Positions 55,992 to 58,934 of a DNA stretch of 64,000 nucleotides are shown here, piece after piece (position 1 is the first letter of the stretch; each line of letters begins with the position of its first letter). The notes beneath the pieces were generated by a model. The model had not been told where the DNA came from. It worked only from the letters and a program-made list of their open reading frames with translations, and ran no database searches. The translations under genes were made by a program, and so were the position numbers. Source of the stretch: Yinghuangia seranimata (GTDB lineage: Bacteria > Actinomycetota > Actinomycetes > Streptomycetales > Streptomycetaceae); contig NZ_JASAOI010000010.1 in the NCBI RefSeq assembly GCF_029953285.1, forward strand, positions 248,001-312,000, given 5' to 3'.

Positions 55992-56603
55992 TCAGCGGTC
56001 GAGGCCGAGTTCGAGCCGGGCGTACGCGAGCGCGTTCGCGACCCGGTCCGCGCGCTCCAGGCCCGGCGCGCCGATGACGATCTGGAGGGCGAACCCGTCG
56101 AGCATGCCGTGGAGGCGGGTCGTGAACGCGGTGCGGGCGGCCGCGTCCAACGGCGCCCACTCCCCCGCGTCGGCGCCCGCGTCGAGCAGGGCGGTCAGGT
56201 CGTCGGCCCAGACGCGCTCTATGTCGTATCCGGCCTGGAGGACCGCCTCGTCGCCGAGCGAACGGCCGTAGACCGCGACCCAGATCGTCCAGCGCGGGTC
56301 GGCGCGGCCGGTCGGGAGGTACAGGTCGACGTAGCCGGCCAGGCGCTCGTAGGCGGTCGCCTCACTCGCGAGGAGGGTGCGGCGGCGGGCGCCGAGCCGG
56401 TCCTCGCTCCAGCGCAGCGTCTCGACGAGCAGGTGGTCCTTCGACCCGAAGTAGTACAGGATGTGGCCGCCGCTGATGCCGAGGCGCTTGCCGAGCGCCG
56501 CCATCGTCATGGCGTCGAGGCCGCTCTCGGCGATCGCCTCGAGGGCCGCCTGGAGGACTACCTCGCGCGGCTGTTCGAGGCGCTTGCGCCGGGTCGGCGG
56601 CAT
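55992..56603 (-). CDS. TetR-family transcriptional regulator
   Basis: A 203-residue TetR-like repressor. The N-terminal HTH is clear: VVLQAALEAIAESGLDAMTM, ALGKRLGISGGHILYYFGSK, DHLLVETLRWSED. The C-terminal ligand domain has no recognised subtype. AGGAGC precedes the ATG. It follows agmatine deiminase and the urease relic on the same strand, so it is likely the operon regulator; the palindrome at 58750-58768 before the operon is a candidate binding site. Confidence 0.92.
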   Translation of the reverse strand: MPPTRRKRLEQPREVVLQAALEAIAESGLDAMTMAALGKRLGISGGHILYYFGSKDHLLVETLRWSEDRLGARRRTLLASEATAYERLAGYVDLYLPTGRADPRWTIWVAVYGRSLGDEAVLQAGYDIERVWADDLTALLDAGADAGEWAPLDAAARTAFTTRLHGMLDGFALQIVIGAPGLERADRVANALAYARLELGLDR

Positions 56604-56819
56604 GGGATGCTCCTGTCTTCGGTGCCGGTTCGTGCCGGGCGCGGCCCCGTCCCCACCCCGGGGCCACGCCGCGCACACTCGTCCGATCATCCGACCGGAC
56701 CTGTGGACAGTCCCCGACACGTGACCGCCCACCCTTGCTACACATCGCAATGGGAACCGCGCCCGCGGTGAGATAACCACAACATCGCGGGCGCGACCCC
56801 CCGCGCGGGACCGGCGGGG

Positions 56820-57872
56820 TCAGACGCGCGGCTGCTGCTGCGTGATGCAGTGGATGCCGCCGCCGTTGGCGAAGATCCCGCGGGCGTCCACGAGTTCGAC
56901 GGTGCGCCCGGGGAACAGCCGGGCGAAGGTCGCGGCGTTCTCCTCGTCGCGCGGGTCGTCGAACCCGCACAGCACCACGGCGCCGTTGCAGAGGTAGTGG
57001 TTGATGTAGCTGTAGTCGACCCAGCCGTGGCCGTCCTCCTCCAGCACGGTCGGGGCGGGGATCTCCACGACCTCCAGGCGCCGCCCACGCGCGTCGGTCG
57101 CGGCGCGCAGCAGCGCGGCGTTCTCGCGGCCGACCTCGTAGTCGGGGTGCGCGGGGTCGGGCTGCGTGTGGCACAGCACGACGCCGGGGCGCGCGAACGA
57201 CGCGACGATGTCGATGTGGCCGCGGGTGCCGTAGCGCTCGTAGTCGCGGGTCAGGCCGCGGGGCAGCCAGATGACCTTCTCCACGCCGAGGTAGGCGCGC
57301 AGTTCGGTCTCGACCTGCTCCTTGGTCCACTCCGGGTTGCGGCCCTTGTCGAGCTGCACGGTCTCGGTGATGAGGACGGTGCCTTCGCCGTCGACGTGGA
57401 TGCCGCCGCCCTCGTTGACCATCCGGGACGCGTAGCGCTTGGCGCCGGACAGCTCGATGACGTGCTCGGCGATGTCCTGGTCGCGGCCCCAGGCCGCCCA
57501 CTCCTGGGCGCCCCAGCCGTTGAAGACCCAGTCGGCGGCGGCCAGGTCGCCCCGGCCGTTGGTGAGGAACGTGGGGCCGATGTCGCGCATCCACGCGTCG
57601 TCGAGGGGGCGCTCGACGACGGTGAGCGGCTGCTGCACGTAGCGCTTGACGGTGTCGGCCTCGCCGAGGTCCGCGACCATGGTCACGGGCTCGTAGCGGG
57701 CGATGGTCTCGGCGACGCGGCCCCACGCGACGCGCGCGGCGTGCAGGTCGCCGTCGCCGTCGCCCGCCTCGCCGAAGGTCTCGTTGGAGGTGGGCCACGC
57801 CATCCAGGTCTGCTCGTGCTCGACCCACTCGGCGGGCATCGAGAAGCCGTCAGCGGCCGGGGTGATCGTCAT
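56820..57872 (-). CDS. aguA: Agmatine deiminase
   Basis: Hydrolyses agmatine to N-carbamoylputrescine and ammonia. The 350-residue protein has the family motifs MPAEWVEHEQTWMAWP, DDAWMRDIGPTFL, NEGGGIHVDGEGT, GHIDIVASFA and the catalytic Cys342 in NGGGIHCITQQQP. It lies 31 bp after the urease relic on the same strand. N-carbamoylputrescine amidase (aguB) is not seen in the window. The product ammonia and the former urease neighbour suggest the locus once scavenged nitrogen from guanidino compounds. Confidence 0.94.
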   Translation of the reverse strand: MTITPAADGFSMPAEWVEHEQTWMAWPTSNETFGEAGDGDGDLHAARVAWGRVAETIARYEPVTMVADLGEADTVKRYVQQPLTVVERPLDDAWMRDIGPTFLTNGRGDLAAADWVFNGWGAQEWAAWGRDQDIAEHVIELSGAKRYASRMVNEGGGIHVDGEGTVLITETVQLDKGRNPEWTKEQVETELRAYLGVEKVIWLPRGLTRDYERYGTRGHIDIVASFARPGVVLCHTQPDPAHPDYEVGRENAALLRAATDARGRRLEVVEIPAPTVLEEDGHGWVDYSYINHYLCNGAVVLCGFDDPRDEENAATFARLFPGRTVELVDARGIFANGGGIHCITQQQPRV

Positions 57873-57903: not shown

Positions 57904-58728
57904 TCAGGGGAAATACAGGCGGTTCGGCGACACCGACTCGGCCGGCCCGGACGTCACCGGAGCGCCGCCGAGCGTGACCAGGCCGGTGTCGGCGGCCACC
58001 CGGACCTCGGCGACGCGGTTGTTGAATCGCATCGCCGCGGGCCCGATGCCCCGCGTGCCGCGCACCCCGACGCGGCGCCGCTTGGTGGGCATGTGGTCGC
58101 CGCCGTTGTCGGCGGCCTGGCTGGTGAACGCGACCGACCGCTCCGCCGGGGCGGCGCCGTGCGCGCCGGGCTGCGGCCCGAACAGCACCGTCCCGGGCGC
58201 GTCGGTGCCGGGCGAGCCGGGGCCGGCCGTGGCGGGAGCCGCGAAGCCGCCGGCGCGCGAGCCTTCGGTGCGGCAGGCGCGGTCGGTCGGCGTGGGCAGC
58301 GCGCCGGCGCGCGAGCCTTCGGTGCGGCAGGCGCGGTCGGTCGGCGTGGGCAGCGCGCCGGCGCGCGAGCCTTCGGTGCGGCAGGCGCGGTCGGTCGGCG
58401 TGGGCAGCGCGCCGGCGTGCTCGGCGGACCGGACGGGGTCGGTGACGACGGCGAGGCGGGTCGCGTCGTCGAACACCGCTTCGACCTTGACCTCGCCGAC
58501 GATGTCGCCGACGCCGGGCAGGACGTCGTCGGGGCCGAGCACGGTGCGGGCGCGGTCGATCGCCTCGGCGAGGCGCACACCGTCACGGGCCGCCTCACAC
58601 ACGGTGTCCGCGATGAGGGCGTGGGCCTCGGGCACGTTGAGCCGCAGCCCCCGGGCCCGGCGGGCCCGGGCGCGCTCGGCCGCGGTGGAGATCAGCAGCC
58701 GGTCGCGCTCGGTCGGTGTCAGACGCAC
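57904..58728 (-). pseudogene. Urease relic: gamma subunit fused in frame to the C-terminal end of the alpha subunit
   Basis: A 274-codon open frame starting at a GTG with GGAGG upstream. Residues 1 to about 100 are a full urease gamma subunit (VRLTPTERDRLLI, RGLRLNVPEAHAL, VLPGVGDIVGEVKVEAVF). Residues about 185-274 match the last 90 residues of urease alpha (SVAFTSQAA, VRGTRGIGPAAMRFN, SPNRLYFP). The beta subunit and most of alpha, with all nickel ligands and the carbamylated Lys, are missing. The junction (about 106-160) is three exact copies of an 18-residue repeat. The frame is intact but cannot code an active urease. Heads the agmatine deiminase operon. Confidence 0.8.
58249..58410 (-). 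repeat. Three exact 54-bp tandem repeats at the urease deletion junction
   Basis: Identical units at 58249-58302, 58303-58356 and 58357-58410, followed by 8 bp of a fourth. Each is in frame and encodes the 18-residue unit starting AGALPTPTDRACRTEG. They lie between the gamma-subunit part and the alpha remnant, so they may mark the deletion or have arisen after it. Confidence 0.9.
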
Positions 58729-58749: not shown

Positions 58750-58768
58750 GTTCAATACGTGATTGAAC
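58750..58768 (-). promoter_or_regulatory. Perfect 7-bp palindrome upstream of the urease relic-aguA-tetR operon
   Basis: GTTCAAT (58750-58756) and ATTGAAC (58762-58768) flank ACGTG, 22 bp upstream of the first gene. A partial extra half, GCGTTCTAAAC, follows. Such palindromes near promoters are typical TetR operators; the operon-encoded TetR is the obvious candidate. Confidence 0.6.
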
Positions 58769-58934
58769 AGCGTTCTAAACCGGCTGTCAAAGGTCCCCCG
58801 CCGACAGGCGGCGTGCATGGCCCGTAAGCGGGACGCCGACACCCCGGGCGGCAACAGACCGCGTCGCCCATCCCACGGGCAGGCTCCTTGGCGCGGACCG
58901 GTCGCGACGTCCCGCAACAGCGGTGACCACCGGG

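Follow-up and report, generated by a model that had tools for sequence, protein, structure and literature searches.

The ure(AB)C layout of urease genes has been described for Streptomyces coelicolor and Streptomyces avermitilis in the accessible part of one report (PMC2492869), and the accessible part of another gives it as one of three types of urease cluster in Streptomyces (PMC5489568). Among the papers listed on urease with agmatine deiminase in Streptomyces, on Yinghuangia urease, on urease pseudogenes (12 of 99) and on SCO5526, no title or opening of an abstract mentions a remnant such as the one described here. It lies in a 64,000-nucleotide stretch of Yinghuangia seranimata DNA (contig NZ_JASAOI010000010.1, forward-strand positions 248,001 to 312,000), which we call the window and to which all positions refer. 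A single frame in the window joins a urease gamma domain to the end of a urease alpha subunit. We read this frame as the relic of a recent in-frame deletion in a urease operon of the ure(AB)C type, a relic that heads a still-intact operon, and give this reading a probability of about 0.88. The features of the locus are as follows, private and radical changes being defined below.

57904 to 58728, minus strand: remnant frame ureA' - linker - 'ureC, 274 codons plus stop, GTG start
58432 to 58728, minus strand: urease gamma domain (Pfam), residues 1-99, with the radical private changes F14S, L19R, V74G and F99V
58255 to 58416, minus strand: three identical in-frame tandem copies of 54 bp in the former gamma-beta linker (TRF array 58248-58417)
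58177 to 58185, minus strand: deletion joint, codons L-F-G, placed by the relatives' alignment, where the beta start (...VLFG) runs into alpha (GPQ...)
57907 to 58179, minus strand: last 91 residues of UreC (urease alpha), from a profile match and the relatives' alignment
58762 to 58790, minus strand: promoter-like TTGACA-N17-TTCAAT, shared with Yinghuangia soli and two Embleya loci (N17 or N18)
58750 to 58768, no strand assigned: perfect inverted repeat GTTCAAT-N5-ATTGAAC over the -10-like hexamer, shared with Y. soli
56820 to 57872, minus strand: full-length agmatine deiminase-like protein (PF04371), sharing 87% identity with its Y. soli orthologue
55992 to 56780, minus strand: open frame of a TetR-family regulator, which probably begins near 56603 to judge by eye from the Y. 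soli gene

Both parts of the gamma-alpha chimera proposed in a preliminary description of this DNA are matched by profiles within one open frame. Residues 1-99 span the whole of Pfam Urease_gamma (PF00547; profile 1-99 of 99, E 2.2e-32) and pass its curated cut-off with 111.8 bits against 23.9, and the C-terminal part of a urease alpha model aligns with residues 160-273 (E 5.4e-11). The best NCBIfam match is the gamma/beta fusion model NF009671, over residues 1-107; the remnant falls below the curated cut-off of this model (150.5 vs 243 bits) and below the equivalog cut-off NF009712 (109 vs 123 bits), and passes that of the domain model TIGR00193 (99.4 vs 82.3). Judging by these profile matches, automatic annotation would probably label the remnant a urease gamma subunit. 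Pfam and NCBIfam profile searches gave no beta family outside the gamma part of the fusion models, and the first few residues before the joint are all that is left of the beta subunit. The alpha subunit with its nickel site is absent, the last 91 residues excepted; the metal-site motifs, whose residue roles we assume, are placed in the missing part. The gamma part had been called intact, which holds for the full Pfam profile but not for F14S and L19R, changes at columns invariant in 25 other gamma sequences. In a structure model built on an alignment of 23 sequences (mean pLDDT 56.6, with 145 of 274 residues below 50), residues 11-100 lie in pLDDT blocks of 82-96, and confidence is low for the repeats and, a short hairpin excepted, for the alpha end. 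The product, if translated, would be a gamma domain followed by a largely disordered tail, unable to hydrolyse urea.

The source genome, a 9.8-Mb draft of 113 contigs, was one of three genomes of the genus that were compared. The corresponding place in Y. soli KLBMP 8922 is occupied by a ureAB fusion coding for 331 residues, a ureC coding for 574, the deiminase and a TetR gene, and in Streptomyces sp. Root1304 (locus L015) ureAB and ureC are open frames of 279 and 570 residues followed by the deiminase, so that the comparison of the locus in close relatives that had been advised yields intact ureAB and ureC in two of them. Root1304 and Y. soli share 95% identity in UreC; between the window and Y. 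soli, identity is 87% for the deiminase and 78% for TetR. In gene order the locus agrees with the intact relatives and belongs to the ure(AB)C - deiminase - TetR operon type. In G002, the remaining genome of the genus, the deiminase had no match and the urease matches were all more distant; the deiminase family occurs at 6 places in the source genome, 7 in Y. soli and none in G002. Among 24 related loci (L015-L038), 23 have a UreC match that extends across no fewer than 556 of the 574 residues, split between two reading frames at one of them (L018); at the remaining locus (L023) the contig runs out before that. At L018 6753-8425, from Ornithinimicrobium sp. INDO-MA30-4, UreC is in two overlapping pieces in different frames, a frameshift or a sequencing error. 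The deiminase gene stands directly downstream of ureC on the same strand in 12 of the 24, an order that hints at a functional link between this class of urease and the PF04371 deiminase.

The window is shorter than Root1304 by 1826 bp and than Y. soli (locus L016) by 1991 bp, in frame in both cases; the beta subunit and the nickel-binding core are gone, as had been claimed, with the 1.8-2.0 kb that is missing relative to these loci. The three 54-bp copies of the assembled sequence (58255-58308, 58309-58362 and 58363-58416) are exact and in frame, as first described, but they do not sit at the joint, which lies near 58179, 25 codons past their end. The linker unit is single in both relatives, with 38 of 54 bases identical in Y. 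soli and 43 of 54 in Root1304. The repeat expansion looks recent, since its copies are identical, and because the repeats lie 25 codons from the joint, in the gamma-beta linker, expansion and deletion look like separate events. A deletion through the 54-bp repeats is rejected in view of this distance and of the donor sites at the joint, which are only briefly similar (beta CTGTTCGG, alpha CTCGG).

Downstream of the remnant the deiminase-like gene begins after 31 bp, and the TetR gene is next. GGAGG stands immediately 5' of the start codon and is identical in Y. soli. The promoter-like site at 58762-58790 was not reported by a sigma-70 consensus scan. The two Embleya loci (L017 and L024) have the same promoter arrangement, placed, as judged by eye, within longer inverted repeats that have matching changes on both arms; Root1304 lacks this arrangement. 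With up to one mismatch allowed, GTTCAAT-N5-ATTGAAC occurs at one place in the source genome, and it is likely to be the TetR-family operator of the urease-deiminase operon. Gene order in the relatives, together with the kept promoter-like site and inverted repeat, argues for the operon with agmatine deiminase and TetR that had been proposed from the sequence. The DNA similarity of the window to Y. soli ends at about 58801, just upstream of the promoter-like site; past this point Y. soli has another TetR gene (L039 7389-8078) and the window has methyltransferase and oxidoreductase genes.

Changes in the kept parts were counted as private when they fall at columns identical in four other close sequences (L015, L016, L017, L024 and the window, each taken in turn) and as radical when their BLOSUM62 score is negative. 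In gamma and the alpha end together, 10 of the 11 private changes of the window are radical, compared with 0 of 8 in Root1304 and Y. soli (Fisher p 0.00012), a contrast that was picked after the alignment had been seen and that rests on 11 and 8 substitutions. The radical share is 6 of 6 in the window vs 0 of 4 in the sisters for the alpha end (F4P, L14R, D70G, M75T, L84P and L90P, numbered from GPQ with gapped columns dropped) and 4 of 5 vs 0 of 4 for the gamma part; for the deiminase the window has 2 of 8 and the two sisters 7 of 18. F14S, L19R, L85P and L91P stand at columns otherwise invariant among 26 gamma and 17 alpha-end sequences, window included (alpha numbered from GPQ), after rows below 55% identity had been dropped, a cut that removed 5 of 30 gamma rows and 9 of the 25 for the alpha end. 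Invariant gamma columns are changed in other intact-looking members too, four in L031, all conservative, and two in the set on contig C54 of the source genome, both radical; L030 has two private changes at otherwise invariant alpha-end columns.

Rates give a less uniform result. When all private changes are set against those of the deiminase, the excess in the window is not significant (pooled p 0.13), which counts against a relic. A branch codon model gives the window an omega of 0.141 vs 0.039 for the alpha end (p 0.035), no rise for gamma alone (0.034 vs 0.029, p 0.77) and none for the deiminase (p 0.84). For gamma and the alpha end together it gives no significant rise either (p 0.11-0.20), again a point against a relic. 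The branching order of the window, L015 and L016 is ambiguous; three topologies were used for this combination and one, with the window beside L016, for the single parts. NG86 ratios for gamma and the alpha end (0.17 and 0.21 for the window vs 0.13 between the sisters) were not relied on. A fair reading of these comparisons is that constraint was lost recently, the loss being visible in the kind of change more than in its rate.

The preliminary description had also held that the frame and its ribosome-binding site survive. Indeed, the frame is open and GGAGG is present; the remnant has no stop and no frameshift, and all its length changes are multiples of three, which by itself counts against a relic. 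However, stops are rare at 79% G+C and frames open by chance are common, so the survival of the frame says little about its use. Stops make up 1.1% of the possible substitutions in the remnant, 40 neutral substitutions (substitutions only, no indels) leave the frame stop-free with a probability of 0.65, two plus-strand frames over the same stretch are likewise stop-free, and so are 23% of 924 frames taken from 822-base stretches of the window.

It is possible, though doubtful, that the frame is kept as a translated leader while the protein itself is idle. An out-of-frame scar would stop ribosomes early, let transcription terminate and leave less of the deiminase encoded 31 bp downstream. The kept promoter-like site and inverted repeat are consistent with this idea, as are the short gap, the in-frame length changes and a deiminase that is full length and not faster-evolving. 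Against it stands the frequency with which frames are open by chance, the 23% of 924 just given; with such frames common and a deletion that seems recent, there is no need to invoke selection to keep this one open. The leader idea supplements the reading of the frame as a deletion relic and does not oppose it.

Five urease matches in the source genome comprise the remnant frame and two other urease sets. One set, on contig C38, lies near the sole UreD match found in the genome; of the urease accessory genes, which the preliminary description suggested seeking elsewhere, UreD is the one that was searched for. The other, a second ureAB-ureC set on C54 (L013 5857-10428) with a deiminase-family gene on each side, has the same fused layout as the relatives, and its gamma is 74% identical to the window's; unlike the window, it has open ureAB (247 residues) and UreC (567) frames, with metal-site motifs judged by eye, and its UreC aligns over its full length with solved ureases (best E 3.7e-161). 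An origin of the remnant from this paralogue is rejected, the window gamma being 74% identical to that of C54 vs 90% to that of Y. soli and the neighbouring genes matching Y. soli. Where the solved urease 4z42 has MVCHNL, the C54 UreC (L013 6918-8618) has VSVHGL and the Y. soli UreC VSAHDL; what we take to be the flap Cys is replaced in both, and the His is kept. UreC proteins of this class are putative ureases.

That the gamma domain and repeat tail are made and used, whether to modulate the paralogous ure(AB)C enzyme by binding its alpha or beta chains or to set deiminase expression in the manner of a translated leader, is improbable. A protein repurposed as such, gamma plus repeat tail, for example a modulator of the second ureAB-ureC set that binds alpha or beta chains, is very improbable, even with that set present on C54, a gamma part predicted with high confidence in the structure model and a gamma omega that is not raised. 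The tail is mostly of low confidence in the same model, radical changes occur both in gamma and in the alpha end, and F14S and L19R are radical changes at invariant gamma positions. Moreover, a second example is lacking among 150 family genomes (E limit 1e-30), an even sample of a larger group with the source genome among them and about 16 candidates scored in each, and among the 23 related loci whose contig reaches ureC. A match was found in 101 of the 150 and none in 49 at this limit; no match other than the window's runs across the gamma and alpha parts, and the next longest covers residues 1-195 (G073). On plasmids 160 records match, none covering 80% of the query in one place. The intact family of short gamma-alpha proteins that would have spoken for conserved function is not apparent in this 150-genome sample. 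Of the choice first offered between a decaying relic and a repurposed protein, the first half is favoured by the intact ancestor, the 1.8-2.0 kb loss, the radical changes and the two other urease sets; repurposing has little support.

An assembly error, either a misjoined chimera or a wrong repeat number, is extremely improbable: the genome is a draft of 113 contigs and assemblers can mis-size tandem repeats, but the kept parts carry 10 radical private changes that misjoining an intact gene would not create, the 407-kb contig continues for about 100 kb or more on either side of the joint, and the five genome matches include no other copy of the gene.

We return to the deletion relic heading the operon. 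About 1.8-2.0 kb is missing, and with it beta and the first ~480 alpha residues with the nickel site, and the beta start is joined in frame to the alpha end. The deletion would have come late on this lineage. The remnant would since have drifted under little constraint because other ureases cover the function, and its frame would owe its survival chiefly to the rarity of stops at 79% G+C and to how recent the event is. The promoter, the operator and the deiminase and TetR genes presumably stay under selection. The locus would in this way be a clear example of a redundant urease operon lost in a high-G+C actinomycete with its promoter and downstream genes kept, and it cautions against taking the length of an open frame at ~79% G+C as proof that a chimeric gene is used.

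Among known systems the nearest are the ure(AB)C genes of S. coelicolor and S. avermitilis, for which the accessible parts of the published descriptions mention no deiminase gene (PMC2492869, PMC5489568). As given there, these genes consist of a fused gamma-beta gene and then ureC (PMC2492869, PMC5489568), and the orthologues of Y. soli and Root1304 are alike in this. The window copy differs from the S. coelicolor and S. avermitilis genes in being without beta and most of ureC, so that it can give no urease. It has the look of a common type of gene relic, left by a urease operon of a known kind, rather than of a new protein.
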